Source: Ideonella oryzae (GTDB lineage Bacteria; Pseudomonadota; Gammaproteobacteria; Burkholderiales; Burkholderiaceae_C). From it: a stretch of 64,000 nt of DNA. Both the position numbers and the translations under genes were made by a program. The notes beneath the pieces are model-generated. The model did no database searches. It had not been told where the DNA came from and worked only from the letters and a program-made list of their open reading frames with translations. Of the stretch, positions 2,364-20,889 are shown one piece after another. Within the stretch, counting starts at the first letter, position 1. Every line of letters starts with the position of its first letter. The DNA is taken from contig NZ_JAMXMC010000014.1 of NCBI RefSeq assembly GCF_024055665.1, forward strand, positions 1 to 64,000. Direction: 5' to 3'.

Positions 2364-3311
2364 ATGCAGTTGTCGTCGCCTTTGTTGGAGTTTCCTTCCA
2401 CGTCTTTTGATCCCTGGCGGGTTTCTGAGCTCCGGCACCACCTGGGGGATCATCCCCTCTTCGCCAAGCCAGCCTTGATGGAGTTGGCGGCTCGGTTGGA
2501 GCAGCGACGCAGCGTCCGTGCGCACACGGCGCAAGCGACGGCCGGGACAGCGTTCAACCATGCCCCCGCCATCTTTCCGAATCGCCGAACCGCCGTGGCA
2601 ACGCTCGACGACATCGACAACGCGGGCGTCTGGATGTCACTCCTCAATGTCCAGGCCGACGAGATCTATCGGGAGCTGGTGGACGGCGTGCTGGACAGCG
2701 TGAAGCCCATGCTGGACAAGCTGGACCCGGGCATGTGCTACCGGGGCGGGTGGATCTTTCTGACCTCCCCGCGGGCAGTGACGCCGTTCCACATGGACAA
2801 GGAGCACAACTTCATCCTCCAGATCAAGGGTCGCAAGACCTTGTACGTCTGGGAGCCGGATGACCTGGAGGCGGTGAGCGAGGAGGCCCGTGACCTGTTC
2901 CATGCCAGCCACAGCCGTGATCTGGTGGCTTGGCGTGATGCCCTGCGGGCGCGGGCGCATGTTTTTCAGCTGGAGCCGGGCATGGGCGCCTACATGCCGG
3001 CCACCAGTCCTCACATGGTCGAGAACGGGGATGGTGCCTCCATCACCGCCAGCTTTACCTATTACACGCATTCCACCATCCGCAACGCACGGATGCACGC
3101 GCTGCACCAGCGGCTGCGTCAGATGGGCATGCAGCCCGCGCGGGTGGGGATGCATCCATGGTGGGACGCCTTCAGCGGGGCGCTCTACAGTGGCCTGCTG
3201 GGTTTGCAGCAGGCCTTCGGGCAAGGGCGCGGATCTGCCGGCGTGGGAGAGGAGTATTCCCGCTACGCACTGGATCCCGCGGCAAGGGAGGGCTCTCATG
3301 CCTCAATCTGA
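2364..3311 (+). CDS. JmjC/cupin_8-like Fe(II)/2-oxoglutarate oxygenase of the synthetase cassette
   Basis: A 315-residue soluble protein with a cupin/JmjC-type iron site: the H-x-D pair is His143-x-Asp145 in TPFHMDKEHNF, and the distal His is likely His217 in TSPHMVENGD. The basic residue in QIKGRKTLYVW is where JmjC-like proteins bind 2-oxoglutarate. Some family members hydroxylate free or carrier-bound amino acids or protein side chains. A good ribosome site (AGGAG, six bases before ATG) supports the start. The last 14 bases overlap the start of the hybrid synthetase, so the two are probably translationally coupled. I infer that it tailors the amino acid or the peptide made by the neighbours, but the substrate is unknown. 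It could also be a non-catalytic cupin. Confidence 0.72.
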   Translation: MQLSSPLLEFPSTSFDPWRVSELRHHLGDHPLFAKPALMELAARLEQRRSVRAHTAQATAGTAFNHAPAIFPNRRTAVATLDDIDNAGVWMSLLNVQADEIYRELVDGVLDSVKPMLDKLDPGMCYRGGWIFLTSPRAVTPFHMDKEHNFILQIKGRKTLYVWEPDDLEAVSEEARDLFHASHSRDLVAWRDALRARAHVFQLEPGMGAYMPATSPHMVENGDGASITASFTYYTHSTIRNARMHALHQRLRQMGMQPARVGMHPWWDAFSGALYSGLLGLQQAFGQGRGSAGVGEEYSRYALDPAAREGSHASI

Positions 3312-6300
3312 CAACGGTGTGTCTCTCAAGCATTTGTCCCCTGATTCCGGGGCCGCATGGCGAATCCATGCCCTGGTGGAAGCCCAGGCGGCGCTGCGGC
3401 CGGACGCGCGGGCCATCACGATGGATGGCGAGTCCCTGACTTATGCCGACTTGAACCGACGGGCGAACCAGCTGGCCTGGCACCTGCGGCGCCTGGGCAT
3501 CGGAGACGGTTCCCTGGTCGCGATCGCGCTGGAGCGCTCCATCGACATGGTGGTGGGGTTGCTGGGGATCCTGAAGTCCGGGGCGGCCTACCTTCCGCTG
3601 GATCTGGCCTACCCGAAGGAGCGCGTCAGCTTCGTGCTGGAGGATGCCGCGCCAGCGGCCATGCTGACGTCTGCGTCCAGCATCGATCGGCTGCCTGCGC
3701 TCGGGCGGCTGCCTGTGTTGCGGCTGGACGATCCGGCCCCGGCCTGGCAGCAGGAGGCGGCTGAGAACCCGCCGGCGACGGGGGGTGCCGATCCTCTGGC
3801 CTATGTGATCTACACCTCCGGCTCGACCGGTCGCCCCAAGGGGTGCCTGGTCACCCATGGCAATGTGCTGCAGTTGCTCATCGGCACGGAACCCTGGTTT
3901 GGCTTCGGGCCCCAGGATGTCTGGAGCTTCTTCCACTCCCACGCCTTTGACTTTTCGGTCTGGGAGATCTGGGGAGCCTTGGCCTATGGTGGACGGGTGG
4001 TGGTGGTGCCCTACCTCACCAGCCGCGCACCGAGGGAGTTTCTGAGTCTCCTGTCCCGAGAGGGCGTGACGGTGCTGAACCAGACGCCCTCGGCCTTCCA
4101 GGGGCTGGTCCTGGCGCTGGAGGACTGGGACGGTCCCTTGGCCTTGCGCTATGTGATCTTCGGTGGCGAATCCCTGGAACTGCAATCGCTGCGGCCCTGG
4201 TTCGACCGCTTCGGCGATCGACAGCCCCAATTGATCAACATGTACGGCATCACCGAGACCACGGTGTTTGTCACCTACCGTCCGGTGTCACTGTCCGACC
4301 TGGAGGCTCGGCGGGGCAGCGTGATCGGAGATCCCATCCCTGGCTGGGACCTCTGGCTGTTGGACGAGCAGCAGCGGCCGGTGGCCGAGGGCGAGGTCGG
4401 TGAGATCTATGTTGGCGGGGTGGGTGTGTGTCTGGGCTACCTGAACCGCCCGGATCTCAATGCCGCCCGCTTCCTGGAATGGACCCCCCCCGGCGAGGTG
4501 CAGCCTGTCCGCCTCTACCGTTCCGGGGATCTCGCCCGGTATCTGCCGGACGGCGACCTGGAGTACCTCGGGCGCATGGACCAGCAGGTCAAGATCCGCG
4601 GTTTCCGCATCGAAACCGGCGAGATCGAGGCCCAGATCCTCAAGTGGCCGGGGGTTCGTGCCTGCGCCGTGGTGGCGCGCAGCGAAGGTCCCGAGAGCGA
4701 GGCGCAGCTGGTGGCCTATCTGGTCCCACCCGCCCCTGAACTCCATCACGGGCTCAGGGAATTCCTGCTTCAGCACCTGCCCGACTACATGTGCCCGGTG
4801 GCGTTCGTGGGGATGGATGCCCTGCCACTGACCGAGAACGGCAAGCTCGACAAGCGGGCGCTGCCGGCACCCATGCGCCAGCGCCCCGACACGGCGGGCC
4901 CCTATCAGGCACCGCGTGGCGCCCTGGAAGAGGCGATCTGCCAGGTCTTCGCACGGCTGCTGGGCATGGCGGAGATCGGGCGCGAGGACAACTTCTTCGA
5001 GTTTGGCGGCAACTCCCTGCTGGCCATTCGGGCGGTCAGAACACTGCGGGAAGAGCAGGGCGTCACGCTGCCCGTGCCCGTCCTGTTCGAGCAGCCCACG
5101 GCGGCAGGGTTGGCACAGGCACTGGCCGCGGGCGGCACGGCGGCCATGGCCGCCACCGCAGGCACGCCTGCAGCGACAGGGGGCGACATCGCCATCATTG
5201 CCATGTCCGGCCGTTTCCCGGGCGCGGCTTCCGTGGAGGCGTTCTGGGAAAACCTGCGGCAAGGGGTGGAGTCTGTCGAGCGCTTTGACGAATCCACCGT
5301 GGACCCGATGGTGCCCGCCCGCCTGCGCGGCGACCCCGACTACGTCTGGGCCCGCGGGGTGCTCAAGCAGGTCGAGGAGTTTGATCCCGCCTTCTTCGGG
5401 ATCGGCGAGCGGGAAGCCGAGGTGATGGACCCGCAGCAGCGCTTGCTGCTGGAACTGGCCTGGGAGTGTCTGGAGCGCGCAGGGCATGCCCCCAACCGCT
5501 GCGACACGCCAGTGGGCGTGTTTGCCGGGGTGTACACCGGTCTGTTCGGCAACAGCTACGCCCAGCGCATCCTGAACCGATGCCCCGAGGTGGTGGAGCA
5601 GTTCGGTGAATTTCAGGTCATGCTGGCCAACGACAAGGACTATGTCGCCACCCGGATCGCGCATCGCCTGAACCTGAGGGGGCCGGCCGTGTCGGTCCAG
5701 ACCGCCTGCTCGACCTCCCTGGTGGCGATTGCCGAGGCGGTCGGGGCCTTGCGGCTGGGCCGCTGCCGCATGGCGCTGGCGGGTGGGGCGGCCGTGACCG
5801 TGCCCTGGCGAGCCGGCTACCTCTACCAGGAAGGCGCCATGCTGTCCAAGGACGGCCACACGCGCAGCTTCGACGCCGATGCCGGCGGCACGATCTTCAG
5901 CGACGGGGCGGCGATGGTGCTGCTCAAGCGGCTGGAGGACGCGTTGGCCGATGGGGATCCGGTGTGCGCGGTGATCCGCGGTGCGGCCATCAACAACGAT
6001 GGCGGGGGCAAGGCCAGCTTCACGGCGCCCAGCCCCGAAGGTCAGGCGGCCGTGATCCGCGCCGCGATGGAGGACGCTCGCGTCCAGCCCCGCGACATTT
6101 CCTATGTGGAGGCCCACGGCACGGCCACGCCCCTGGGCGACCCCGTGGAGGTGGAAGGCCTGGCGCGGGCATTTCAGGCCGCCGGCTTGCCCGCAGGGGC
6201 CTGCCGGCTGGGCTCTGCCAAGAGCAATGTGGGGCACACGGTGACGGCGGCAGGGGCGACGGGGGTCATCAAGACGGCCCTGTCCCTCATGCACGAGGAA

Positions 6301-9300
6301 CTGCCCGCCACACTGCATTACCGTTCGCCGAACCCGGCCATCGATTTCGCGCGCACGCCGTTCGTGGTGAACCAGGAACGCAGTGCCTGGCCACGCCGCG
6401 CTGGCCAGCCGCGTCGTGCGGGTGTCAGCGCTTTCGGCGTGGGGGGCACGAACGCCCATGTCGTGCTGGAGGAGGCACCGCAGCGTGCGCCCTCCAGCCC
6501 GGCCGTGGGGCCGCAGCTGCTGCTGCTGTCGGCGCGCAGCAAGGCCGCGCTGGAGACGATGGCCGCCAGCCTGGCCGAAGGTCTGAGCCAGGCCGGCGAC
6601 ACAGTCAATCTGGCGGATGTGGCGCACACGCTCCAGGTGGGCCGCGCCCGTTTCGGCCATCGCCTGTGTGTGGTGGCGAGTTCCGTGGCAGAAGCCGTCA
6701 CCGGGCTTCGCACCGCGGACGCTCCGGGGCGCGCGACGCGCATGCTGGGCCGGCAGGTTCCGCCGCTGGTCTGGCTGTTCCCGGGGCAAGGGTCCCAGTA
6801 CGAAGGCATGGGGCAGGCGCTCTATGACGCAGAGCCTGTGTTCCGCGCAGCGCTGGACCGTTGTTTCGAGGCGCTCCGCGGGACACTGGACTTCGACTTG
6901 AAGGACCGGATGTTCCATGGCGGGGCCGAGGTGTTGCGCCACACCGGCGTGACGCAGCCGGCCATGTTCTGCCTGGAATACGGGCTGTCGCAGCTGTGGC
7001 TGGCCCGGGGCCTGCGCCCGGCCGCCTTGATCGGCCACAGCGTCGGCGAGTTTGTGTGCGCGGTGCTGGCCGGGGTGATGGCCCTGGAGGATGCCGTTCG
7101 ACTGGTGGCACGCCGTGGCGCGATGATGCAGGCGCTCCCTGGCGGCGCCATGCTGTCCGTGCGCTTGTCTGCGCAGGAGGTCGCGGCCCGCCTGCCAGAG
7201 GGCTTGGCTCTGGCGGCGGACAACGGGCCCAATGCCACGGTGGTGGCCGGACCGGCCGACGCCATCGAGGCCTGGCGGCAGCAGCTGGAGTCCGCCGGCA
7301 TCGTGAGTCGTTCCCTGCAGACCTCCCACGCCTTCCATTCACCGATGATGGATGCGGTGGTCGCGCCCTTCGAGGCCGAGGTCCGGGCTGTCCGGATGGC
7401 GCCGCCCCAGCTGCCCATCTACTCCACCTTGACCGGCGCGGCGCTGGAGGCAACGCAGGCAACGGACCCGGCCTACTGGTCCCGGCATCTGCGTGACACC
7501 GTTCGCTTCTCGCCCGCGTTGCAGGCTGCGCAGGCGGGACTGGGGGACGTCGCCTTCCTTGAACTGGGCCCCCGCGGCACCCTGGCCACCCTGGCTCGGC
7601 AGCACCAGCGACCCGGTCAGGCGCCCCCGGTTGCCGTGGCCTGTCTGGCCGATCAGCCGCAGAGCGAAACAGCCACCGTGGCATTGGCCTGGGGACAGCT
7701 TTGGACGCTGGGCATCGAGCCCGCCATGTCGGTGGCGCATCCTGCGACGGATCGGCAAAGACTGGCGCTGCCCACCTATCCGTTCGAGCGGCGCAGGATC
7801 TGGTTGACCCCCTCGTCTCCGGAGGCAGGGCCCGCTTCCGCCTCCGTCCCTGCATCTGCCCCCGCATCCCTATCCCCCGTCTTGTCCGCCATTTCTTCTG
7901 CCGGGAGTTCGCCCATGGCCGCTGCTGCTTCCCTCTCCGATCGCCGTCCGCAACTGCTCCTTCGTCTGCGGGGCGTGTTCGAGGACGTCGCCGGCATCGA
8001 TCTGACGGATGCCGACAGCGATCTCGGCTTCGTCGAGCTGGGCCTCGATTCCCTGACCCTCACTCAGGCGGCGCTGCAGATCAAGAAGACCTTCAAGGTC
8101 TCGCTGACCTTCCGTCAGCTGATGGAAAACTACCGCAGCCTGGACGCGTTGACCGCGTTCCTGGACCAGACCCTGCCTCCGGAGGCCGCGCCTGCGTCGG
8201 AGGGGGCACGCGGGGCGGTGCCCTCTTCCGATGTCATTGCACCTGCGGGGTTGGCGGGGGGGGCGGGGGTGGCGCCGATGCTGCCGATGACCGGCATGGC
8301 GACGCCCGCCTTCGCCGCATCGCAGCCGCTGGTGCAGCAGGTCATTCAGCAGCAGATGCAACTCATGGCGCAGCAGCTGGCGCTGCTCCAGGGCGGTGTC
8401 GTGCAGGGCCCTGGCGGTGGCCAGCCGGCTGCTGCAGCCGCCGCTCCTATGCCCGCGGTTGCTCCGGCATCGACCGCAGCCCCGCTCCAGGGCGGCAACG
8501 GTGCACCGGTGGCCGCCGATGGAAGCGACGAGGCCAACGCAGCCCGCCGTTACGACGTGAAGAAGGCCTTCGGCGCGATTGCCCGCATCCACACCCAGCA
8601 CAGCGAGCTGACGGAGCGCCAGCAGGCCCGGCTGCAGGCCTTCATCCAGCGCTACACGGAACGCACGGCACGCAGCAAGCAGTACACCGAGACGCACCGG
8701 GCTCATCTGGCCGACCCGCGTGTGGTCAACGGCTTCCGCCCGATGACCAAGGAGATCACCTACCAGATCGTCATCGAGCGCAGCAAGGGGGCCCATCTCT
8801 GGGACTTGGACGGTCACGAGTATGTGGATGTGCTCAACGGCTTCGGCATGAACCTGTTCGGGTGGCAGCCCGACTTCGTCAACGACGCTGTTCGTCGCCA
8901 GCTGGACCTGGGCTATGAGATCGGGCCCCAGCACCCCCTGGCCGGCGAGGTGGCCCAGCTCGTCTGCGAGCTCACCGGTTTTGACCGGGCCGGCCTGTGC
9001 AACACCGGGTCCGAGGCCGTGATGGCGGCGGTGCGCATTGCGCGCACCGTGACGGGACGCAACACCGTGGTCCTGTTCACCGGGTCTTACCACGGCACCT
9101 TCGATGAGGTGCTGGTCCGGGCGGGCAAGGCTGCCAAGGGCTTGCCGGCGGCGCCCGGCATCATGTCCGGCATGTTCGGGGATGTGCGTGTGCTGGACTA
9201 CGGCACGCCCGAGGCGCTGGAGTTCATCCGGGCGAACGCCGAGGATCTGGCGGCGGTGCTGGTGGAGCCGGTGCAGAGCCGTCGGCCGGATTTCGCACCC

Positions 9301-10092
9301 CTGGACTTCCTGCGCGAGGTGCGCGCGATCACCGAGGCCAGCGGCACCTGTCTCATTTTCGACGAGGTCATCACCGGCTTCCGGGCCCACCTGGGTGGCA
9401 CCCAGGCCCTGTTCGGCATCCGCGCCGACCTTGCCAGCTACGGCAAGGTGATCGGTGGCGGCTTCCCGATCGGCGTGATCGCCGGCAAGCGCGACTACAT
9501 GGACGCGCTCGATGGCGGAGCCTGGCAGTACGGTGACGACTCGATGCCGACTGTCGGGGTGACCTACTTCGCAGGCACCTTCGTGCGCCACCCGCTGGCC
9601 CTGGCCGCGGCCAAGGCTGCGCTGCAGCATCTGAAGGACTGCGGGCCGGCCTTGCAGGAACAGCTCAACCGAGAGACCCAAGCCTTGGCCGATGACCTCA
9701 ACGCCTATTGCAAGCAGGTGGGGGCCCCGGTGGCGGTGCGGCACTTCGCCTCGCTCTGGCGCGTCAGCTGGCTGGAGGACCATCCGCTGCAGGATCTTCT
9801 GTTCGCGATGATGCGCAGCCGGGGCATCCACATTCTGGACAACTTCCCGTGCTTCCTGACCACGGCGCACAGCCCGCAGGACATCGAGAAGATCAAGGCG
9901 GCTTTCAGGGCCTCCGTGGATGAACTGCAGGAGGCTGGATTCCTGCCGCGTCTGAATGGGCCTGCACCGATCCTGGATGCCGGGCGGCCGCCGGTCGCCA
10001 ATGCCAGACTCGGACGGGACAAGGACGGGCGCCCTGCCTGGTTCGTGCCGGAGGCGGGCGTGCCGGGCAAATACATCAAGTTGGAACCCTGA
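3298..10092 (+). CDS. Hybrid NRPS-PKS with aminotransferase: A-PCP-KS-AT-ACP-AMT
   Basis: A 2264-residue assembly-line enzyme. The frame stays open to 2890, but the ATG at 3298 overlaps the upstream gene by 14 bases and gives a normal N-terminus. Domains: adenylation (about 20-500; YTSGSTGRPKG at 172-182); PCP with Ser573; ketosynthase (about 620-1040) with Cys804 in QTACSTS plus EAHGTATPLGDP and SNVGH; acyltransferase with Ser1248 in GHSVGE and HAFH at 1344-1347, the malonyl-CoA type; ACP with Ser1585 in GLDS; a Gln/Ala-rich linker; and a class III PLP aminotransferase (about 1790-2230) with FDEVITGFR and Lys2050 in SYGKVIGGG. There is no condensation domain at the front, so this is a loading module. 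There is no KR, DH or ER, so the beta-ketone should be converted directly to a beta-amine. The adenylation pocket reads D-F-W-N-I-G-M-V-F, one change from the known threonine code. Mycosubtilin and microcystin synthetases use comparable KS-to-AMT logic. Confidence 0.93.
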   Translation: MPQSDNGVSLKHLSPDSGAAWRIHALVEAQAALRPDARAITMDGESLTYADLNRRANQLAWHLRRLGIGDGSLVAIALERSIDMVVGLLGILKSGAAYLPLDLAYPKERVSFVLEDAAPAAMLTSASSIDRLPALGRLPVLRLDDPAPAWQQEAAENPPATGGADPLAYVIYTSGSTGRPKGCLVTHGNVLQLLIGTEPWFGFGPQDVWSFFHSHAFDFSVWEIWGALAYGGRVVVVPYLTSRAPREFLSLLSREGVTVLNQTPSAFQGLVLALEDWDGPLALRYVIFGGESLELQSLRPWFDRFGDRQPQLINMYGITETTVFVTYRPVSLSDLEARRGSVIGDPIPGWDLWLLDEQQRPVAEGEVGEIYVGGVGVCLGYLNRPDLNAARFLEWTPPGEVQPVRLYRSGDLARYLPDGDLEYLGRMDQQVKIRGFRIETGEIEAQILKWPGVRACAVVARSEGPESEAQLVAYLVPPAPELHHGLREFLLQHLPDYMCPVAFVGMDALPLTENGKLDKRALPAPMRQRPDTAGPYQAPRGALEEAICQVFARLLGMAEIGREDNFFEFGGNSLLAIRAVRTLREEQGVTLPVPVLFEQPTAAGLAQALAAGGTAAMAATAGTPAATGGDIAIIAMSGRFPGAASVEAFWENLRQGVESVERFDESTVDPMVPARLRGDPDYVWARGVLKQVEEFDPAFFGIGEREAEVMDPQQRLLLELAWECLERAGHAPNRCDTPVGVFAGVYTGLFGNSYAQRILNRCPEVVEQFGEFQVMLANDKDYVATRIAHRLNLRGPAVSVQTACSTSLVAIAEAVGALRLGRCRMALAGGAAVTVPWRAGYLYQEGAMLSKDGHTRSFDADAGGTIFSDGAAMVLLKRLEDALADGDPVCAVIRGAAINNDGGGKASFTAPSPEGQAAVIRAAMEDARVQPRDISYVEAHGTATPLGDPVEVEGLARAFQAAGLPAGACRLGSAKSNVGHTVTAAGATGVIKTALSLMHEELPATLHYRSPNPAIDFARTPFVVNQERSAWPRRAGQPRRAGVSAFGVGGTNAHVVLEEAPQRAPSSPAVGPQLLLLSARSKAALETMAASLAEGLSQAGDTVNLADVAHTLQVGRARFGHRLCVVASSVAEAVTGLRTADAPGRATRMLGRQVPPLVWLFPGQGSQYEGMGQALYDAEPVFRAALDRCFEALRGTLDFDLKDRMFHGGAEVLRHTGVTQPAMFCLEYGLSQLWLARGLRPAALIGHSVGEFVCAVLAGVMALEDAVRLVARRGAMMQALPGGAMLSVRLSAQEVAARLPEGLALAADNGPNATVVAGPADAIEAWRQQLESAGIVSRSLQTSHAFHSPMMDAVVAPFEAEVRAVRMAPPQLPIYSTLTGAALEATQATDPAYWSRHLRDTVRFSPALQAAQAGLGDVAFLELGPRGTLATLARQHQRPGQAPPVAVACLADQPQSETATVALAWGQLWTLGIEPAMSVAHPATDRQRLALPTYPFERRRIWLTPSSPEAGPASASVPASAPASLSPVLSAISSAGSSPMAAAASLSDRRPQLLLRLRGVFEDVAGIDLTDADSDLGFVELGLDSLTLTQAALQIKKTFKVSLTFRQLMENYRSLDALTAFLDQTLPPEAAPASEGARGAVPSSDVIAPAGLAGGAGVAPMLPMTGMATPAFAASQPLVQQVIQQQMQLMAQQLALLQGGVVQGPGGGQPAAAAAAPMPAVAPASTAAPLQGGNGAPVAADGSDEANAARRYDVKKAFGAIARIHTQHSELTERQQARLQAFIQRYTERTARSKQYTETHRAHLADPRVVNGFRPMTKEITYQIVIERSKGAHLWDLDGHEYVDVLNGFGMNLFGWQPDFVNDAVRRQLDLGYEIGPQHPLAGEVAQLVCELTGFDRAGLCNTGSEAVMAAVRIARTVTGRNTVVLFTGSYHGTFDEVLVRAGKAAKGLPAAPGIMSGMFGDVRVLDYGTPEALEFIRANAEDLAAVLVEPVQSRRPDFAPLDFLREVRAITEASGTCLIFDEVITGFRAHLGGTQALFGIRADLASYGKVIGGGFPIGVIAGKRDYMDALDGGAWQYGDDSMPTVGVTYFAGTFVRHPLALAAAKAALQHLKDCGPALQEQLNRETQALADDLNAYCKQVGAPVAVRHFASLWRVSWLEDHPLQDLLFAMMRSRGIHILDNFPCFLTTAHSPQDIEKIKAAFRASVDELQEAGFLPRLNGPAPILDAGRPPVANARLGRDKDGRPAWFVPEAGVPGKYIKLEP

Positions 10093-10099
10093 CTTTTCT

Positions 10100-13000
10100 A
10101 TGAACTCCATGGCGGCAGTGCGAGAAGCGGAATTCGATCCGTTCGCGGAAGGCGACTTCGACCGTGTCTTTCCGACCAGCGAAGCCCAGCGGGAAGTGTG
10201 GCTGGCCGACCGCCTGAGTCCCCAGGCCTCACTGGCCTTCAACGAGTCGGTCACCCTGCGCTTGAGGGGGGCGCTCGATGTGGAGGCCCTTCAAGGGGCC
10301 CTCAAAGCCCTGGGGCTGCGCCACGAGGCCTTGCGCTGCTGCTTTGGCGCCGACGGCAACGATCAGTTCGTGTCGCGTGATGCCGGGCTGATCTTGCAGC
10401 GCGTGGATCTCACGCGGCAGCCGGAGGATGCGCGGGAGGCCGCTCTGCGCCTGGCGGCGGAGCAGGCGGTTGAAACGGTGTTCGATCTGGAGCGCGGACC
10501 TTTGCTGCGGGCCGCCCTGTATCAGTTGGCGCCCGACGACCATGCGCTGCTGTTGACGGCCCACCACATCGTCTGCGATGGATGGTCCTGGGGGGTGATC
10601 GCGATGGATCTTGGGGCGCTGTATGCCGAGCAGATCGGCGTGGCCCCCGGCCCGCTGGATTGCGCTGGCTACAGCGACTACGTGCGGTGGGAGTTGGAGC
10701 AGGGCGCCAGCGAGGCCATGCGCGAGCACGAGCGGTACTGGCTGCATCAGTACCGAGGCAGCCTGCCGGTGCTGGATCTGCCGACGGACCGGGCTCGTCC
10801 GGCCATGCGGGGCTTTGCTTCGCGCCGTCTGGACCATGAACTGGATGCCGCCCTGCTGGGCGATCTGCGCGCTCTGGCCGCGCGCTCGGGCGTGAGCCTG
10901 TTCGCCTGTCTGCTGGGCAGCTTTGGGCTGCTGCTGAGCCGTCTGGGAGGGCAGGACGATGTGGTGGTCGGCGTGCCGGCCGCGGGGCAGGCCAGCTCCG
11001 GCCTGACGGGGCTCGTCGGTCACTGCGTCAACCTGCTGCCCATCCGCCTGGCGGTGGATCCGGGGCAACCGCTGTCGGAGCTGCTCAAGCACAGCAGCGC
11101 GCAGCTGATGGATGGGTTCGAACATCAGGCGCTGACCTATGCGGCCTTGCTCCGGCATCTGCAGGTCGCCAGAGACCCCAGGCGTCTGCCACTGGTCAGC
11201 GTGATGTTCAACCTCGATCAGCCGCTTCGCGGACTCGAGCAGGCCTATCCGAACCTGCGGGTCGATCTGAGCAGCAATCCGCGCCATTTCGAGAACTTCG
11301 AGCTCTTCGTCAATGCCGTGCCGGTCGGGGATCGCTTGCGTCTGGAGTGCCAGTACAACACGGACCTGTTCGATGAGGTGTCCGTGCGCCGCTGGCTCGC
11401 CGCCTTCGAGACCCTGCTGCGCGCGGCTGTTGGCCATGCGCAGTTGCCGTTGGGCGAACTCGCCTGGTTGAACGAGCCAGCGCAGGCCGAACTGAAGGCA
11501 CTTCAGCCTCCGCCCACGGCCGTGCCTGGCGCGCAACTCATGCACGCGGGGTTCGCTCAGCAGTGTCTGAAGACGCCCGACAGCGTGGCCGTGCTCGACG
11601 GCGCCGTCTCGCTCAGCTATCAAACGCTGGACCGCCGGGCCAATCAGCTGGCCAGGGCCATGCGTGCACGCGGCGTGCGGCGAGGGAGTCGGGTGGGCTT
11701 GTGCCTGACCCGGCAGGCCGAGATGGTGGTAGCCCTGCTGGCCGCCCTGCGCGCAGGTGCCGCCTATGTTCCGCTGGACCCGGGCTTCCCGGCAGAACGG
11801 TTGTCCTTCTACGCGGAGGATGCGGCCCTGGATCTGCTGGTGTTGGATGATGGGGCTGCCTCGAATGCGCCAACCACCTGGCGCCCGGATGCCTCCGAGC
11901 GCCTGCTGTGGCTGGACCGCCCCGCGACCTGGTCAGACCAGGTCGACGATCCGCTGGTGCCGGGTGAAGACGACCCCGGCCCGGAGGATGCTGCCTACCT
12001 GATCTACACCTCAGGCTCGACGGGCAAGCCCAAGGGGGTGGCGGTGCCGCACCGGGCCGTGGCGAACTTCCTGCACAGCATGGTCCGCGAGCCGGGCTTG
12101 GCTGCGGGCGACTGCCTGGCAGCGGTCACGACCCTGTCTTTTGACATCGCGGTGCTGGAGTGGCTGCTGCCGCTGCAGGTGGGGGCCCGCGCCCTCATCG
12201 TCCCGCGCGAGGTGGTGATGGATGCGTTCCTGCTGAACCGCTGGCTGGAACAGCACGCGGTCACGGCCATGCAGGGCACACCCAGCCTTTGGCGCATGCT
12301 GCTGGACACCCCCTGGCGTGGCGGGCGTGGTTTCAAGGCCCTGGTCGGTGGAGAAGCGTTTCCGCTGGATGTGGCGCAGCAGCTGCTGGAGCGGGCGGGC
12401 GAGGTGTGGAACCTCTATGGCCCGACGGAGACCACCATCTGGTCCACCGTCTGGCGTGTCGACGGTGCCGCGCTCAAGCATCGTGGCATGTCGATCGGCC
12501 GCCCGCTGGACAACACCGAGGTGTGGGTTCTGGACGCTCGGCAGCAGCCCTGTCCCGTCGGGGTGCCTGGGGAAATCTACATCGGTGGGCGCGGTGTGGC
12601 GATCGGCTATGTGAACCGCCCTGAGTTGACGCAGGAGCGATTCCTCACCGGCGGCTTGCCAGCGGCTGTCGCCGGCCCGCTGTACCGCACCGGTGACCGT
12701 GGGCGCTGGTGCAACGATGGCCTGCTGGAACATCAGGGGCGACTGGACTTCCAGGTCAAGGTGCGTGGTTACCGCATCGAGCTGGGAGAGATCGAGTCGG
12801 CCTGCGAGGAGGTGTCCGGTGTTGCGCAGTCCGTCGTCCTGGCGCGGGAGGATTCGCCTGGGGATACGCGGCTGGTGGCCTACCTGACCCTCCGGCCGGG
12901 CGCGACGCTGGACGAGGCGGCACTGAAGGCGCATCTGCGCGGCAAGCTGCCGGACTACATGCTGCCCCAGCATGTGGTGCCTCTGCCTCGCATGCCCCTG

Positions 13001-15919
13001 CTGCCCAATGGCAAGGTCGATCGCAAGTCCCTGCCCGCGCCGGAGCTGGGGGGCGCGCAGGAGACCGGTGCCCCGGTGCCGGCGCGCAACGACACCGAGC
13101 GCTTCATCCTGACCGCCATGGAAGAGGTGCTGAAGCTGCCCGGTCTGGGCGTTCAGCACGACTTCTTCGCGCTGGGGGGGCACTCCCTGCTGGCTGCGCG
13201 GTTGACGGCGCAGATCAACCGTCATTTCCAGATCAACCTGCCGCTGAGTGCACTGTTCGAGGCACCGAATGCGGAGCGGCTGGCGCTGGCCGTCACGCGT
13301 CTGTCAGCGGCAGGGCTGCCCAAGCGACAGCCCATCGTGGCCCTGCCCGGGCGGCGCACGGCGCCGCTGACGCCAATGCAGGAGCGCATCCGCTTCGTTC
13401 AGGAGCTGCACCCCGAGCGGGTGCTTTACAACACGCCCTCGGGCCATCGCTTCAAGGGGCCGCTGGATTTGCGGGCCTTCGAGCGGGCGCTGCAGCGCAT
13501 CGTCGATCGGCAACCGGCGCTGCGGACCCGGATCGCTCCCGCGGCCCAGGGCGCGTTGCAGATCGTCGAGCCGACCCTGGCCTTTCGTCTGCCCCTGGTG
13601 GACCTGACGGATGTGCCAGCTGCCGAGCGTGAATCGGTGCTGATGCAGCGCATGCAGGACGTGGTGGATGCGCCGATCGACATCCACCAGGGGCCGCTCT
13701 TCCGTGCGGTGCTCTACCGGCTGGCGGCGGACGAGCACGCGTTGCTGTTCATGCCGCACCACATCGTGTGGGATGGCTGGTCCTTTGACCTGTTCTATGG
13801 CGAGATGGCGGCGCTCTATGCGGCTTTCATTGAAGGCCGGGCCGACCCGTTGCCGCCGCTGACGGTCAGCTACGGTGACTACGCCGAGTGGTACCTGCAG
13901 TGGCTCAACGGCGCCGAGGCCGCACAGCAGCTCGACTACTGGAAACAGCGCTTCGCCAGAACCGAGGCGCCCGCCGTGCCGTGGACCGATTTTCCGCGTC
14001 GTGCGGGCATGAGCGGTGCCGGCGTCACCGAGTGGGTGCAGATCGATGCGCCGACCACCGAGCGCCTGCGCGCGCTGGCACGCAAGGAAGAGGTCACGCT
14101 CAACATGCTGGCCTTTGCGGTGTACACCGCCATGATGAGCCGGGTCATTGGCGGGGCTTCGATCGTGATGGGCGTGCCGGTGCGTGGCCGGCTGATGGCC
14201 GAGGTCGAGCCGGTGATGGGCTTCTTCAACAACCTGCTGCCCCTGCCGATGCGGGTCGATGCGACGCTGTCCTGGGCGACGTACATGCAGCAGGTGCGTG
14301 CCACGTTGGTCGAGGCCCTTCAGCATCAGGACATCGCCTTTGAGCGCCTGGCGATGGAGCCCGAGGTGGCGGCACTCTCCCAGAAGGCCGGGCTCTACCA
14401 GGCCCTGTTCTCCTACCAGGATGCCCGTGCCCGGGAATGGCAGTGGGGGCCGCTCACCCAGGAGCGCATTGCCATCTTCCAGAAGGGGGCGACCGAGGAC
14501 CTGGGTTTGTGGCTGATGGAGTTGCAGGACCGACTGGTCGGCGGCTTCACCTACAACGCCGACATCTACAGCCAGGCCACCGCGCAGGCGCTGCATGCGC
14601 GCTTCATGGAACTGCTGCAGCGGCTGGCCGAGAATCCCGACACCGACCTTGATCACTTGCTGGGCGAGAGTGACACGGTTTCCGGGCGCTACCTGCAGAG
14701 CCGCCGCGAGGGGGGCGAGCCGCCGGCGGCTCAGGCCAACGAGCCACCGGTTGCGAGCGCTGCGCAAGCGGTGATCCCGGACGAGAAGGACGCGAACCTC
14801 AGCCTCACCGAGGCCGAGCTGTGCCAGATCTGGAGCCGGCTGCTGGGTTTGCCGCACGTGGGCGTGCATGACAACTTCTTCAACATCGGTGGCAACTCGC
14901 TGAAGGCCATGCAACTGATCGCCGAGATCGAACAGCGTCTGGTCAAGCGGGTGCGGCCTGCGGTGCTGCTGGAAGCACCCACGGTGCGCCAACTGGCCAC
15001 GGTGCTGGACCAGATGGCCGGACGCAACTCGCTGGTGCGCCTGCGGGCGGGTGCTGGCCGGCCCGCGGTGTTCTTCATTCACGACGCCGACGGTGAGATC
15101 CTGCTGTACCGGAATCTGGCCTACCGGCTGGACGAGGGCCATGCCTGCTACGCGTTGCAGCCCCATGTCGATGAAAACGGGGTGGTGCTGCACACGGTGA
15201 TGTCGGACATGGTCGAGCACTACATGGCCAAGATCCGATCAGTCCAGCCGCATGGTCCCTACATCCTGGCGGGGCTGTGTGTGGGCGGGAACATTGCCTT
15301 CGAGATTGCACGGCGTCTGCAGCAGGAGGGCGAGGCCATTGCCATGGTGGCCCTGTTCGATGCGGCCGATGTCTTCGCTCCGAAAATCAAGGGGCTGCAG
15401 GCGCAGCGGCGCCTGAACCGGGTCACCCGGCTCTTCCAGGACGGGCAAGGTGAAGTGGCCCTGGGGGCGGTCGGCTCGGCCCTGCCCGGGCTGCTGCGCA
15501 AGATCAAGGGCTACGTGGGGTATCAGGTTGGCTCGAGGCTTGCCCGCCTCTGGGTGCAGGCGCGGGTGAGGTTGCTGCGGCTGTACCTGGCCCGCCAGTG
15601 GCGTGTGCCCGCGGTGCTGAGGGGGCTCACTGTGCGGGAGGTGCTGTCCTGCTCTGAATTGGCGCTGGGCCACACCGGCAAGCTGCAGGGCGATGTCTGG
15701 TTGTTCCGGGCCTCGGCGGGGACGCAGGATCCGGGCGACGAGCCTTTCGCGGCCTTCTACCAGGACGCTCAGTTTGGGTGGGACCGTCGCATCACGGGTC
15801 GGGTGCTTGGCTGCGATGTTCCAGGTGGCCATGCCAGTCTGTTGCAGGAGCCCCAGGTCGAGCACCTCGCGCAGTTGATGCGTGCCGACATCGACGTCGC
15901 CCTGGCCGCCAAGGACTGA
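10100..15919 (+). CDS. Non-ribosomal peptide synthetase: C-A-PCP-C-PCP-TE
   Basis: A 1939-residue NRPS starting seven bases after the hybrid synthetase stops. The first C domain has HHIVCDG at 155-161. The adenylation domain has YTSGSTGKPKG at 636-646 and pocket residues D-I-L-Q-L-G-L-I-W, the established glycine code. The first PCP carries Ser1029 (LGGHSL). A second C domain has HHIVWDG at 1220-1226. It is followed directly by a PCP with Ser1600 (IGGNSLKA) and no adenylation domain between them. The C-terminal thioesterase (about 1645-1939) has GLCVG, with Cys1727 in place of the usual Ser, and a likely catalytic His1911 in PGGHAS. The protein should receive the beta-amino acyl chain, add Gly, process it at the A-less module and release it by hydrolysis, cyclisation or transfer. 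Confidence 0.93.
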   Translation: MNSMAAVREAEFDPFAEGDFDRVFPTSEAQREVWLADRLSPQASLAFNESVTLRLRGALDVEALQGALKALGLRHEALRCCFGADGNDQFVSRDAGLILQRVDLTRQPEDAREAALRLAAEQAVETVFDLERGPLLRAALYQLAPDDHALLLTAHHIVCDGWSWGVIAMDLGALYAEQIGVAPGPLDCAGYSDYVRWELEQGASEAMREHERYWLHQYRGSLPVLDLPTDRARPAMRGFASRRLDHELDAALLGDLRALAARSGVSLFACLLGSFGLLLSRLGGQDDVVVGVPAAGQASSGLTGLVGHCVNLLPIRLAVDPGQPLSELLKHSSAQLMDGFEHQALTYAALLRHLQVARDPRRLPLVSVMFNLDQPLRGLEQAYPNLRVDLSSNPRHFENFELFVNAVPVGDRLRLECQYNTDLFDEVSVRRWLAAFETLLRAAVGHAQLPLGELAWLNEPAQAELKALQPPPTAVPGAQLMHAGFAQQCLKTPDSVAVLDGAVSLSYQTLDRRANQLARAMRARGVRRGSRVGLCLTRQAEMVVALLAALRAGAAYVPLDPGFPAERLSFYAEDAALDLLVLDDGAASNAPTTWRPDASERLLWLDRPATWSDQVDDPLVPGEDDPGPEDAAYLIYTSGSTGKPKGVAVPHRAVANFLHSMVREPGLAAGDCLAAVTTLSFDIAVLEWLLPLQVGARALIVPREVVMDAFLLNRWLEQHAVTAMQGTPSLWRMLLDTPWRGGRGFKALVGGEAFPLDVAQQLLERAGEVWNLYGPTETTIWSTVWRVDGAALKHRGMSIGRPLDNTEVWVLDARQQPCPVGVPGEIYIGGRGVAIGYVNRPELTQERFLTGGLPAAVAGPLYRTGDRGRWCNDGLLEHQGRLDFQVKVRGYRIELGEIESACEEVSGVAQSVVLAREDSPGDTRLVAYLTLRPGATLDEAALKAHLRGKLPDYMLPQHVVPLPRMPLLPNGKVDRKSLPAPELGGAQETGAPVPARNDTERFILTAMEEVLKLPGLGVQHDFFALGGHSLLAARLTAQINRHFQINLPLSALFEAPNAERLALAVTRLSAAGLPKRQPIVALPGRRTAPLTPMQERIRFVQELHPERVLYNTPSGHRFKGPLDLRAFERALQRIVDRQPALRTRIAPAAQGALQIVEPTLAFRLPLVDLTDVPAAERESVLMQRMQDVVDAPIDIHQGPLFRAVLYRLAADEHALLFMPHHIVWDGWSFDLFYGEMAALYAAFIEGRADPLPPLTVSYGDYAEWYLQWLNGAEAAQQLDYWKQRFARTEAPAVPWTDFPRRAGMSGAGVTEWVQIDAPTTERLRALARKEEVTLNMLAFAVYTAMMSRVIGGASIVMGVPVRGRLMAEVEPVMGFFNNLLPLPMRVDATLSWATYMQQVRATLVEALQHQDIAFERLAMEPEVAALSQKAGLYQALFSYQDARAREWQWGPLTQERIAIFQKGATEDLGLWLMELQDRLVGGFTYNADIYSQATAQALHARFMELLQRLAENPDTDLDHLLGESDTVSGRYLQSRREGGEPPAAQANEPPVASAAQAVIPDEKDANLSLTEAELCQIWSRLLGLPHVGVHDNFFNIGGNSLKAMQLIAEIEQRLVKRVRPAVLLEAPTVRQLATVLDQMAGRNSLVRLRAGAGRPAVFFIHDADGEILLYRNLAYRLDEGHACYALQPHVDENGVVLHTVMSDMVEHYMAKIRSVQPHGPYILAGLCVGGNIAFEIARRLQQEGEAIAMVALFDAADVFAPKIKGLQAQRRLNRVTRLFQDGQGEVALGAVGSALPGLLRKIKGYVGYQVGSRLARLWVQARVRLLRLYLARQWRVPAVLRGLTVREVLSCSELALGHTGKLQGDVWLFRASAGTQDPGDEPFAAFYQDAQFGWDRRITGRVLGCDVPGGHASLLQEPQVEHLAQLMRADIDVALAAKD

Positions 15920-15925
15920 CCGGCC

Positions 15926-17020
15926 GTGACTCGGGTCCTCGTCCTCGGTGCCCTGTCGCTGCTGTTGCTCGCTGCGGTGGCACTGGCGATTCTGTTGGCC
16001 AACGGACGGCTGGGCCCGGCGGAGCGCGGACTGCCCGGCATTCCGATCGGTGTCCTGGGCGATTCCGACAGCCAGTCCTACCAGGGGCGGATTCCCGTGG
16101 GGCCGGTGGGCCCCCCGGTGGGGGGAACCTTCCATGCCACCACCTTCCAATGGCCGGAAGTGCTGGCCCGGATGCGTGGGGACCAGCTCAACCTGGGGCC
16201 CTGGGGCATCTGGGGCGTGCCACGCTGGCAGTCGATGGCTCGCCTGCGCGATGGCCTGGGTCTGCACTGGCGGGCTCCACGCAAGGAGGACCACCGCCAC
16301 AACCTGGCCTGGGCCAGTGGCTGCGAGACCCTGATGGAGGGGCACTGGCGGCAGGCCCCCCGCCTCCTGGACATCATGGATGAAGACCCCGTCTGGTGGC
16401 AGCGTGGTGTCGTCGTGATTCGGACCGGCGTCAACAACTTCGGGAAGGAATCCCTCGACCTCCTGGCGGAAGACCCGGATTCACCCGTGGCGATGGGGCA
16501 GATGAATGCGTGCGTGAAGGCCATCCGCCAGACCATCGAACTGATTCGCGGGCGACATCCCGACACCCGCTTCGTGCTGGTGGGCATCTACAACAATGTC
16601 CATTGGCCTGGCTATTTCAGCAAGTTCCAGTCTTCCCGCGCACAGCAGAACATCGCTGCGGGGCTGGATCATTTCGACAAGGGATTGCAGGCCCTGGTCC
16701 GGCAGGATCCGGGCCGACGGGCCTTCTTCGATGACCGCGCCTGGTTTGAGCGGCTCTGGGGCGGTCGGGGGGACGATGGCCGTCCGGCTTACCGCCCGGT
16801 GGATCTGGGGTTGGGGTGGCGGGTGACGAATTCCGAGGGGGATGATCCGCGCAATGCCGTCCTGGCCAATGGCCATGCCGGTCTGGTCTGGAATGTGCTG
16901 TGGGTTCAGTCGTTGGTGAGCCTGATGCGGACATCCTTCGGGATGGATATCCCGCCGGTCAGCGATGACGAGGCACGGGCATTCGTGGCGAAGAGTCTGG
17001 CTTCGCCGCCACCCCCCTGA
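15926..17020 (+). CDS. Membrane-anchored SGNH/GDSL-type hydrolase or acyltransferase
   Basis: A 364-residue protein with a GTG start six bases after the NRPS stop. A single hydrophobic helix (about residues 4-25) should anchor it with the rest in the periplasm. All four SGNH blocks can be seen: Ser47 in LGDSDSQS, Gly132 in WASGCET, Asn170 in GVNNFG and His317 in ANGHAG. SGNH enzymes hydrolyse or transfer esters; AlgX- and AlgJ-like relatives acetylate exopolysaccharides. Placed between an NRPS thioesterase and a PPTase inside an EPS locus, it could move an acyl or peptidyl group on or off a periplasmic glycan or lipid. That role is inferred. The C-terminus is Pro-rich and ends by overlapping the next start codon by one base. 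Confidence 0.72.
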   Translation: MTRVLVLGALSLLLLAAVALAILLANGRLGPAERGLPGIPIGVLGDSDSQSYQGRIPVGPVGPPVGGTFHATTFQWPEVLARMRGDQLNLGPWGIWGVPRWQSMARLRDGLGLHWRAPRKEDHRHNLAWASGCETLMEGHWRQAPRLLDIMDEDPVWWQRGVVVIRTGVNNFGKESLDLLAEDPDSPVAMGQMNACVKAIRQTIELIRGRHPDTRFVLVGIYNNVHWPGYFSKFQSSRAQQNIAAGLDHFDKGLQALVRQDPGRRAFFDDRAWFERLWGGRGDDGRPAYRPVDLGLGWRVTNSEGDDPRNAVLANGHAGLVWNVLWVQSLVSLMRTSFGMDIPPVSDDEARAFVAKSLASPPPP

Positions 17021-17721
17021 TGCCGGCCGAGCCTGGCGATCATCTCGCGACGGCGTTGACGCCAGCGCGCCGTGCCGCGCCGCGCCAGGACGTGACGCTC
17101 TGGTTGCTGGGCCTGGACGACCCGGTTTGCCGGGCCTGCGCCACGGTGCTGTCAGACGCCGAGCGCGAGCGGGTCGGGCGCATGGCGTTCGACCGGGACC
17201 GTCGGCGCATGGCAGCGGCACGCGGCGCCCTGAAGGTGCTCTTGGGGGCTTGGGTTGGACAGTCGCCTGAGCGGCTGCGTCTGTCGGTACGGGACAGCGG
17301 CAAGCCCTGGATGCCGGATCACCCGGGCGTGTTCTTCAACCTCAGCCACAGCCAGAACAGCGCCTTGATCGCGGTGACCGCCACGGGTGAAGTGGGGGTG
17401 GACCTGGAGGTCTTGAGGCAGGGGCCAGATCTGTTGGAACTGGCTGGGCGTGTTCTCACCCCGCGTGAGCAGGCGGAACTCTTGTCCGACAAGGATGTCG
17501 CGGGCCGCGACCGGCGCTTCTTTCAGGGCTGGACGCGCAAGGAAGCCTGCCTGAAGGCCGCGGGCTGGGGGCTGGCCCTGGATCCTCAGGAATTCGAGGT
17601 GGGCACGGGAGAGGACTTCCGTCGCATCCGATTGGCCCATGCGGGCCAGCACTCGGACCTGGACCTGATGTCCCTCTCGCTGGCGCCCCAGGTGGCGGCG
17701 GCCCTGGCCATTCAGCGCTGA
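17020..17721 (+). CDS. 4'-phosphopantetheinyl transferase, Sfp type
   Basis: A 233-residue enzyme that converts apo carrier proteins to the holo form by moving phosphopantetheine from CoA to the carrier serine. The family motifs are present: FFNLSHS near 105-111, GVDLE with Asp128 and Glu130 (Mg2+ binding), and WTRKEACLKA with Trp171, Lys174, Glu175 and Lys179. The start codon overlaps the SGNH gene stop (ATGA). Its obvious clients are the four carrier domains encoded just upstream (PCP, ACP, PCP, PCP). A pathway-specific PPTase supports the idea that the five genes form a self-contained unit. It is the last gene of the cassette and converges on the reverse-strand gene that ends at 17744. Confidence 0.93.
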   Translation: MPAEPGDHLATALTPARRAAPRQDVTLWLLGLDDPVCRACATVLSDAERERVGRMAFDRDRRRMAAARGALKVLLGAWVGQSPERLRLSVRDSGKPWMPDHPGVFFNLSHSQNSALIAVTATGEVGVDLEVLRQGPDLLELAGRVLTPREQAELLSDKDVAGRDRRFFQGWTRKEACLKAAGWGLALDPQEFEVGTGEDFRRIRLAHAGQHSDLDLMSLSLAPQVAAALAIQR

Positions 17722-17743: not shown

Positions 17744-18721
17744 TCACTTGTACTCGATCAGTCGGCCGTGCTGGCGGCGCAGGCGCAGGATCCAGTAGCG
17801 CAGGGCCCCCTGCGCCTCCGCGAACTTGCCCAGGGTGTTGAAGAGGGACCACAGCCAACGCTGCGGGGAGGTCCTGGTGAGGGCCAGCCGCAGCCATTGC
17901 AAGGGGTACAGCAGCAGCAAGGCTGCGGCCCAGGCCCCGCCGCTGACCAGGCCCACCAGGACCACTGCAGGCAGGAGCAGTCCCCAGCCCACGGCGCGTC
18001 GCAGTTCGCGCACCCCGTGCCGCTCCGGTGGTGCGCCGTGCATGGCGACGCCTTCGGCATAGGCATAGCCCGCGCGCTTGCTGCGCTGCCACCACTGCCA
18101 GAAGCGATGCATGTCGGCATCGTGCCAGGTCATCTCTGCCGGCAGGATCTGGATCTTCCATCCGCTTTGCCGGAGCCGGACAGACCACTCGGGCTCCTCG
18201 CCCGCGATCAGGGTGGGGTTGTAGCCCCCGGTTTCGCGCAGCGCCTGGGCACGCACCATGGCATCCCCGCCAAAAGCCCGGGCCTCTCCCGTCGGAACGC
18301 CCCATTCCAGGTCGCACAGCTGGTTGTACCTGCTGCGCTCGGGGTGCCGCTCCCGGCGCCGTCCGCACACCACGGCCACATCGGGATGTGCCATGAGGTG
18401 CGCGCGCGCGGTGGCAATCCAGTCCTCACGCACCTCGCAGTCGCCGTCCACGAACTGGACAAGGGCCGTGGCCGGCCACCGCTGCAGTGCCAACTGCCAG
18501 CCTTCGTTGCGGGCGCGTGCCGCCGTGAAGGCCTGGGCCGGGTCGAGTTCCACCACCTGGGCTCCCAGCGTACGGGCCAGCTCGGCTGAACCGTCAACGG
18601 AACCGGAGTCGACATACACCACCGGACAGCCCTGACGGACCACGGACTGCAGGCATCTGCGCAGGCGCTCGCCCTCGTTGCGGCCGATGACCACCGCCAC
18701 GGTGTCTGGCGCCGTCGTCAC
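17744..18721 (-). CDS. Family 2 glycosyltransferase with C-terminal membrane segment
   Basis: GT-A fold transferase of about 325 residues. The N-terminus VAVVIGRNEGERLRRCLQ, then YVDSGSVDGS and FVDGDCE (the DxD-like metal site), are typical of family 2. A hydrophobic stretch near residues 255-295 suggests membrane association. I chose the GTG at 18721, which overlaps the upstream acetyltransferase stop by four bases (GTGA), over an in-frame ATG at 18790 that would overlap that gene by 73 bases. It is the last gene of a three-gene reverse block and faces the PPTase gene. It probably adds a sugar to the EPS repeat unit; donor and acceptor are unknown. Confidence 0.85.
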   Translation of the reverse strand: MTTAPDTVAVVIGRNEGERLRRCLQSVVRQGCPVVYVDSGSVDGSAELARTLGAQVVELDPAQAFTAARARNEGWQLALQRWPATALVQFVDGDCEVREDWIATARAHLMAHPDVAVVCGRRRERHPERSRYNQLCDLEWGVPTGEARAFGGDAMVRAQALRETGGYNPTLIAGEEPEWSVRLRQSGWKIQILPAEMTWHDADMHRFWQWWQRSKRAGYAYAEGVAMHGAPPERHGVRELRRAVGWGLLLPAVVLVGLVSGGAWAAALLLLYPLQWLRLALTRTSPQRWLWSLFNTLGKFAEAQGALRYWILRLRRQHGRLIEYK

Positions 18722-20254: not shown

Positions 20255-20889
20255 AGCATTCCTCGGGGGGTGTCGCGGAATCTCCGGATGGTTTGGCTCC
20301 GCAACTGGGATGGAGTGGATGGCAGGGCCGTCTTCAGCAGCCTGCCTGCAGGCGCTTCAAGCCCATGGATCTTCACCCCTGAGGGATGTGGCCTCCAGGA
20401 CTGCACCGCCTGCATCACGGCAGGATGTCGAAAGGCCAAACAGGTCGCCCCCCGACACCCCATCCAACAGTCTGCACCCTGATCTGGCATTCACGGAACG
20501 GAGTGGATAACAACGCACAGCACCACCTCGCATCGGGCTGACACCGCATGGTCCGAATGCTTGAGAGTCTTGTCGCCGCACGGTGACTCGTCAAGCCCCC
20601 GATGAAGTACGTCAAACAGTAGACAGGCGAGGGGATACCCAAACGCAACAAGATGCGTCAGACTGAGACGCAGCGCACAAAACCGGCGCGCTGAGCCCGG
20701 TGCTCCCTGAGCGGCGGCGTGCATTCAACCGGCGTGGAAGATGTTCCAACGTCCTCAGCAGGGTGTTGTGGTGATCTCGGAGATCCTTTCCAGTTCCATT
20801 GGCAGTCTCTGGACGGAGGGTGACCTTCTCAGTCGGCATGGGGGGCGAAGCCCGTCGTCTGCCCTGTGTCTGGTGCCAGGCCTTTGCGC
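20255..20889. other. Intergenic region between divergent EPS transcription units
   Basis: These 635 bases separate the reverse GT2/acetyltransferase block from the forward WecG-to-CgeB block. Short open frames occur on both strands, but none has a ribosome site or recognisable domain. The stretch looks less GC-rich and less codon-like than its flanks. It should hold the promoters for both units. I see an inverted repeat at 20654-20672, a 10-base palindrome GCCTGCAGGC at 20344-20353, and a short repeat GATCT/AGATC at 20773-20785. I could not place convincing sigma-70 or sigma-54 hexamers. Confidence 0.6.
20654..20672. repeat. Short inverted repeat in the divergent EPS promoter region
   Basis: TGCGTC and GACGCA form a perfect six-base inverted repeat around a seven-base spacer. 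It lies about 220 bases before the WecG-STAS start. It may be an operator half-site pair or a small hairpin; its length alone does not rule out chance. Confidence 0.3.

Follow-up and report, generated by a model that had tools for sequence, protein, structure and literature searches.

The synthase cassette and its gene calls

The window analysed here is a stretch of 64,000 nucleotides from Ideonella oryzae (assembly GCF_024055665.1, contig NZ_JAMXMC010000014.1, positions 1 to 64,000 of the forward strand). Within a Wzx/Wzy exopolysaccharide (EPS) locus it carries a cassette of five genes, all on the plus strand, which is sandwiched between the gene of a WcaJ-type glycosyl-phosphotransferase on the left (706-2100) and the convergent gene of a GT2 glycosyltransferase on the right (17744-18721, minus strand). 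The cassette encodes a cupin dioxygenase, a hybrid polyketide synthase (PKS) with adenylation, peptidyl carrier, ketosynthase, acyltransferase, acyl carrier and aminotransferase domains (A-PCP-KS-AT-ACP-AMT), a nonribosomal peptide synthetase (NRPS) which also contains condensation and thioesterase domains (C-A-PCP-C-PCP-TE), an anchored SGNH enzyme and a 4'-phosphopantetheinyl transferase (PPTase).

The first gene (2364-3311) encodes a cupin_8/JmjC-type protein, a probable Fe(II)/2-oxoglutarate dioxygenase (Pfam Cupin_8, 34.5 bits). It is followed by the genes of the PKS (3298-10092), the NRPS (10100-15919), the SGNH/GDSL-fold enzyme with an N-terminal helix, predicted to be membrane-anchored and periplasmic (15926-17020), and the PPTase (17020-17721; Pfam ACPS, 48.8 bits). 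The cupin and PKS genes overlap by 14 bases and the SGNH and PPTase genes by 1 base, while gaps of 7 and 6 bases separate the PKS from the NRPS gene and the NRPS from the SGNH gene. The likeliest starts of the two synthase genes are the ATG codons at 3298 and 10100. The longest open reading frames (ORFs) start further upstream, at 2890 and 9956; the shorter starts are our choice, because long overlaps are avoided in this way and, for the NRPS, because ATG 10100 lies near a stretch FDPFA which by eye is present in the relatives too. The large ORFs antisense to the synthases are in our reading mechanical ORFs of a GC-rich genome. A first-pass annotation of the window had described five genes of this content, tightly spaced on one strand, and the ORFs, the Pfam domains and the measured distances agree with it. 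Only two condensation-domain matches were found in the whole 4.7-Mb genome, both of them in the cassette.

Domain organization and predicted product

The Pfam domains of the PKS follow each other in the order AMP-binding, PP-binding, ketoacyl-synt N and C, Acyl_transf_1, PP-binding and Aminotran_3, corresponding to A1 (~3379-4854), PCP (4930-5124), KS (5185-6321), AT (6769-7641), ACP (~7957-8200) and AMT (8761-9834). In the NRPS the order is Condensation, AMP-binding, PP-binding, Condensation, PP-binding and Thioesterase, corresponding to C1 (10166-11494), A2 (~11552-13015), PCP (~13088-13315), C2 (13355-14659), PCP (~14816-15004) and TE (~15068-15910). Active-site motifs are present in the KS (QTACSTS), the AT (GHSVG and HAFH) and the AMT (GKVIGGG) as well as in the two C domains (HHIVCDG and HHIVWDG). 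The A, PCP, KS, AT, ACP, C and TE domains, with a PPTase encoded alongside, characterize the two proteins as an NRPS-PKS hybrid. No reductase domain was matched in either synthase by Pfam.

The adenylation codes, taken at positions presumed from the GrsA numbering, are DFWNIGMVF for A1, which is Thr-like, and DILQLGLIW for A2, which is that of Gly; these and the Val, Pro and Ser assignments used for other loci are ones that we presume to hold. The HAFH motif of the AT is presumably a sign of malonyl specificity. An amino acid and malonate, transaminated at the beta carbon, are thus predicted to give a beta,gamma-diamino acid, with Thr 3,4-diamino-5-hydroxyhexanoate, and the predicted product is such an acid joined to Gly. 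A second Gly is probably attached as well; since the last PCP has no A domain of its own, its loading with Gly would have to take place in trans. The diamino acid and the glycine that the first-pass annotation had suggested looking for in EPS hydrolysates are those which domain order and codes predict.

The starter A domain varies among the relatives. In 38 scored loci it is Val-like in 21, Pro-like in 12 (two of them with a variant code), Thr-like in 3 and of another type in 2. A Gly-like code is found for the first A domain downstream of the AMT in 29 of 41 loci and, where there is a second one, in 9 of 11 scored. Variovorax sp. JS1663 (G220, contigs C34 and C43; L142-L145) carries the KS-AMT synthase twice, with starter codes that differ between the copies.

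The thioesterase

At the nucleophile position of the TE the NRPS has a cysteine (GLCVGG). The same residue is seen in 10 of 13 aligned TE rows, namely those of the window, a Vitreoscilla metagenome-assembled genome (MAG), Ancylobacter and seven loci of Paraburkholderia, Burkholderia and Caballeronia, while the remaining three rows (G204 and two of G214) have a serine. According to the excerpted text of PMC11298585, a cysteine also replaces the catalytic serine in the TEs of SulM and ObiF, which form strained rings (beta-lactam or beta-lactone), and in that of AB3403, which is termed uncharacterized there. A Cys thioester would be a suitable target for an amine. A pair of alpha/beta hydrolases is present in many of the clusters that lack a TE. 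In the two hydrolase proteins that were scanned the best NCBIfam matches are hydr1_PEP and hydr2_PEP, both EPS-associated families, with scores below cut-off.

The SGNH enzyme and the cupin protein

The SGNH protein scores below threshold against Pfam Lipase_GDSL_2 (20.2 bits, cut-off 32.9), and its predicted structure has a clear GDSL fold with the catalytic Ser and His residues and an N-terminal helix (residues 2-25). The enzyme is probably periplasmic. Glycan O-acetyltransferases of the AlgX/PatB type are not among the best 50 structure matches listed for it, which excludes nothing. In the cupin protein the residues H143, D145 and H217 (H143-x-D145...H217) are invariant in 31 of 31 rows; we take them to be the facial triad of the cupin.

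Genes of the SGNH enzyme and the KS-AMT synthase were found to be genomic partners even where they are unlinked. In a sample of 200 genomes of the family, including the window's own, the SGNH gene occurs in 5 and the ACP-AMT region in 10 genomes, and all 5 are within the 10. In a sample of 399 genomes of the order the numbers are 6 and 11, again with all 6 within the 11, and the five ACP-AMT genomes without SGNH contain distant relatives (40-49% identity). The corresponding p values, 8.6e-11 for the order and 9.9e-8 for the family, overstate independence because both samples include genomes related to each other; a single genus accounts for four of the six in the order sample. Of 112 relatives in all 80 loci were kept, and 50 of these were picked by us to spread the genera. 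An ACP-AMT region exists somewhere in 48 of these 50 genomes, often far from the SGNH gene, and one of the two misses (L052) ends within an A-PCP-KS gene. The co-occurrence that the first-pass annotation had proposed to check is therefore nearly complete from the SGNH side (48 of 50, 6 of 6 and 5 of 5 genomes).

At three loci in Lysobacter and a gammaproteobacterial MAG (L049, L068, L082) cupin_8 and SGNH genes are paired in a locus that has no NRPS; in the case of L049 and L068 the genome holds a KS-AMT synthase elsewhere.

Distance of the synthase to EPS genes

Poly_export and Bac_transf domains were used as EPS markers and located in 58 synthase-bearing genomes, 48 of which were reached by the search with the SGNH gene and 10, including the window's own, by the ACP-AMT search in the family. 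A marker lies within 10 kb of the AMT in at least 10, within 20 kb in at least 17, within 30 kb in at least 25 and within 50 kb in at least 30 of the 58 genomes. At most 1.1, 2.1, 3.2 and 5.3 would be expected, respectively, the expectation (3.2 at 30 kb) counting every marker as separate and ignoring contig ends. Other NRPS loci, 26 in number and from 24 of the same genomes, served as a control. Only one of them is within 30 kb of a marker (Fisher p 2e-4); several of these control loci sit on short contigs, which makes the control somewhat lenient to a link between synthase and EPS. A general tendency of NRPS clusters to be close to EPS loci was therefore set aside.

The linked loci include those of Paraburkholderia and relatives, Ancylobacter, seven Xanthomonadaceae, Ideonella sp. 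B508-1 and six members of the window's family, among them the genome of the window. Those of the Paraburkholderia group which are annotated carry Wzx, glycosyltransferase, acyltransferase and GH16 genes. For the seven Xanthomonadaceae a Bac_transf gene, possibly the cluster's own, is the closest marker; at least 18 linked genomes are left without them. On a tree of the ACP-AMT region from 41 loci, labelled by linkage at 30 kb, six changes of linkage are needed, at least four of them forced by well-supported branches. The co-location with EPS genes which the earlier annotation had put forward for checking is therefore far above expectation and recurs on several branches.

The EPS locus of the window

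The left edge of the locus is formed by the WcaJ-type undecaprenyl-phosphate glycosyl-phosphotransferase (706-2100, plus strand; Bac_transf; TIGR03023, 485 bits, cut-off 410.75). To the right of the cassette two GT2 genes lie on the minus strand (17744-18721 and 19241-20254). They are followed on the plus strand by genes of an EpsA-like glycosyltransferase of the WecG-TagA-CpsF family (20866-22083), an EpsF-like (Wzz) protein (21981-23483) and an EpsG-like kinase (23480-24391), the latter two below the equivalog cut-off, a Wzy-type polymerase/ligase (24438-25967; Pfam Wzy_C, 38.7 bits) and a Wzx-type flippase (26919-28322; Polysacc_synt_3, 166.6 bits). Further glycosyltransferases and a methyltransferase belong to the right flank. 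An initiating transferase, Wzx, Wzy, a chain-length pair and glycosyltransferases together identify a Wzx/Wzy EPS locus, as the first-pass annotation had it when it placed the cassette between genes for lipid-linked sugars. As for an outer-membrane exporter of the Wza type, the nearest Poly_export match on the same contig (C6:79363) lies beyond the 64-kb window.

The locus is accessory: of four other genomes searched, Ideonella sp. B508-1 alone has an EpsF orthologue (96%), and there the gene (G201, contig C478, 43993-45489) contains an internal TGA, either a disrupted gene or a sequencing error. Two genomes of the same genus (G076 and G181) have WcaJ homologues of 59-62% identity, but their EpsF relatives reach merely 31-35% and they therefore give no clean empty site. 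A second EPS region of the window's genome (G000, contig C5, ~80573-84512) contains Poly_export, an EpsF homologue and an exosortase.

Distribution and variants of the cluster

The cassette family is distributed patchily over Burkholderiales, Xanthomonadales and a few other groups. In Pseudoxanthomonas (G248) and Lysobacter (G225) an EpsB_2-type lipid-sugar transferase sits between PPTase and PKS, so that the Bac_transf gene is part of the cluster itself; the EPS query proteins matched nothing besides this transferase in the two stretches. Two xanthomonadaceal clusters with their own EpsB_2-type transferase (L134, 4352-12740; L124, 3122-11999) adjoin by eye housekeeping genes of the lexA/recA type. 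In the Vitreoscilla MAG the cassette is followed by homologues of both GT2 proteins of the window (62% for the first and 57%, at the equivalent place, for the second), with no EPS marker on that contig among the matches listed. XrtA-type EPS genes are found immediately upstream of the PKS in G165.

Genes of resistance-nodulation-division (RND) efflux permeases are further neighbours of the KS-AMT cluster, as in L140 (6367-10830; G217) and L150 (6377-10818; G246). In G246, the one such cluster scanned, NCBIfam names an RND permease (MdtB/MdtC-like) and its adaptor. A methyltransferase of the TIGR04325 family (L047, 4816-5688, and homologues) recurs next to several clusters.

Carriage by plasmids was set aside, the SGNH relative occurring in only two plasmid records, both from Variovorax. 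An exosortase is present in 30 of the 58 genomes and in none of the other 28. Only in three of the 58 (G214, G218, G233) are exosortase and synthase about 50 kb or less apart, and the exosortase of the window's genome is on contig C5; the cassette as part of an exosortase (XrtA) system was therefore rejected.

Proposed function and alternatives

We propose that a dedicated NRPS-PKS pathway builds a short acyl-peptide substituent for a lipid-linked surface glycan, which would be finished in the periplasm; to this we give an even chance. More tentatively, and a little short of that, the whole family from Burkholderiales, Xanthomonadales and beyond may make beta,gamma-diamino acyl-glycine peptides as covalent blocks of surface glycans, i.e. 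a nonribosomally peptidylated exopolysaccharide with handover by a Cys-type TE and finishing by a periplasmic SGNH enzyme.

The domain order, motifs, adenylation codes, SGNH/KS-AMT partnership and enrichment near EPS loci are features of the sequences themselves. In the proposed course the PPTase would activate the carrier domains, A1 would load a Thr-like amino acid, KS and AT would extend it by malonate, and the AMT would turn the beta-keto group into a beta-amine, giving a carrier-bound 3,4-diamino-5-hydroxyhexanoyl unit. The NRPS would add Gly, and the C-PCP module without its own A domain probably a second Gly. We infer the exact substrates, the acceptor and the reactions of the TE, the dioxygenase and the SGNH enzyme as follows. 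The Cys-type TE would hand the acyl group on, likeliest to a lipid-linked sugar at one of its amines or hydroxyls, the dioxygenase would hydroxylate the building block or the product, and the anchored SGNH enzyme would transfer or trim the acyl group in the periplasm after flipping.

Several observations weigh against this proposal. In 33 of the 58 genomes the matches listed include no EPS marker that shares the contig of the synthase and lies 30 kb or less from it, some of the contigs being short, and all genomes of Variovorax, Xenophilus, Aquabacterium and Piscinibacter among the 58 belong here. A WcaJ or EpsB_2 match is likewise absent from the 40-kb stretches of four clusters of genus g150. 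Five of the ten family genomes with KS-AMT gave no SGNH match, though an EPS marker is no more than 20 kb away in each of the five. The SGNH fold, as predicted, matches mostly esterases and lipases and not known glycan acyltransferases, Cys-type TEs with known products give strained rings and not glycan amides as far as the excerpt of PMC11298585 goes, and an acceptor transferase has no candidate among the identified genes. An RND permease gene adjoins the cluster in six Variovorax genomes.

Because of the unlinked genera and these six permeases a small diffusible diamino-peptide (a signal, an antimicrobial or a metal ligand), which would be exported and matured by the periplasmic SGNH enzyme, is a serious rival, although we think it rather doubtful; the co-location with EPS genes would then be regulatory or ecological. 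EPS-linked and unlinked loci have the same architecture and similar codes, the near-constant partnership of the SGNH enzyme is compatible with a role in maturation, and Cys-type TEs are able to cyclise, again according to the excerpt of PMC11298585. The diffusible product is at odds with the proximity of EPS markers, which is seen in at least 25 of the 58 genomes as against a single one of the 26 other NRPS loci and is recurrent on the tree, and with the lipid-sugar transferase or glycosyltransferase genes that accompany clusters where no EPS locus is evident (G248, G225, the Vitreoscilla MAG), which we count for a glycan-bound product. Beside the window cassette, moreover, no transporter genes were seen other than those of the EPS locus. 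For the same two reasons, unlinked genomes and adjoining permeases, the statement of the first-pass annotation that the product serves the cell surface is only partly supported, namely by EPS proximity and the SGNH partnership.

A mobile natural-product cluster which landed by chance in an accessory EPS region, with no link to EPS, would fit the patchy distribution, the two same-genus genomes of the sample without SGNH and ACP-AMT matches, and the EpsF orthologue shared with one of four genomes. It is unlikely given that EPS proximity recurs on separate branches with different EPS genes and that the GT2 pair is retained with the cassette in the Vitreoscilla MAG. The polyprenyl glycosyl-phosphotransferase inside some clusters could also suggest an unusual precursor, amino sugar-like or lipid-like, from which the glycan backbone would be built, and not a substituent; as the domain logic yields an acyl peptide and neither synthase has a matched reductase domain, we hold this to be very improbable.

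If the acyl-peptide substituent is real, secondary-metabolite machinery diversifies a structural polymer of the cell surface instead of making a free compound. Cationic peptide side groups would alter the charge of the biofilm matrix, its adhesion or its binding of metals, and assembly-line products of this kind, missed in culture extracts as they are bound to EPS, would be a new class of targets for genome mining. The pathway would also give access to beta,gamma-diamino acids, and differences in charge between biofilms would have an explanation open to test. Were the product diffusible, an uncharacterised natural-product family would still be indicated, since in many environmental genera a beta,gamma-diamino acid synthase is constantly accompanied by an SGNH enzyme that is probably periplasmic.

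Comparison with known systems

No description of the cassette was found in the literature searched, which did not extend to subscription journals and compound databases; within these bounds the first-pass view that no characterised system has this content is uncontradicted. The domain types are known, and it is their arrangement and context for which that literature holds no description. In its initiating glycosyl-phosphotransferase, Wzx, Wzy and chain-length proteins the locus of the window is like other Wzx/Wzy EPS loci, including those of the XrtA/PEP-CTERM type, and the two hydrolases of related clusters are similar to hydr1_PEP/hydr2_PEP. Unlike ordinary Wzx/Wzy loci it bears a full NRPS-PKS, and unlike the XrtA/PEP-CTERM type it has no exosortase beside it. 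The sheath glycoconjugate of Sphaerotilus and Leptothrix (thiopeptidoglycan) is a peptide-bearing surface glycan of sheath-forming Burkholderiales; a direct link was set aside, the portions of the literature searched making no mention of an NRPS. The EPS locus for floc formation in Aquincola was also set aside, as the main text of PMC9850573 mentions no NRPS, polyketide or amino acid adenylation.

The PKS of the window is like those of the mycosubtilin/iturin type in its ACP-fused class III aminotransferase (Aminotran_3 after the second PP-binding domain). In these synthases KS-AT-ACP with the fused aminotransferase gives a beta-amino acyl chain. Whereas they start from a fatty acid, the starter in the window is selected by an amino-acid A domain (TIGR01733) with a Thr-like code, a short beta,gamma-diamino acid is predicted as product, and the synthase has an SGNH partner and often lies near EPS genes. 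Amino acids are put on surface glycans by an adenylation enzyme and a carrier protein in D-alanylation by DltA-DltC and in the transfer of glycine to lipid A by AlmEFG. The cassette shares this principle of adenylation and carrier protein with both systems but differs from them in being multimodular and in having KS, AMT, C and TE domains.

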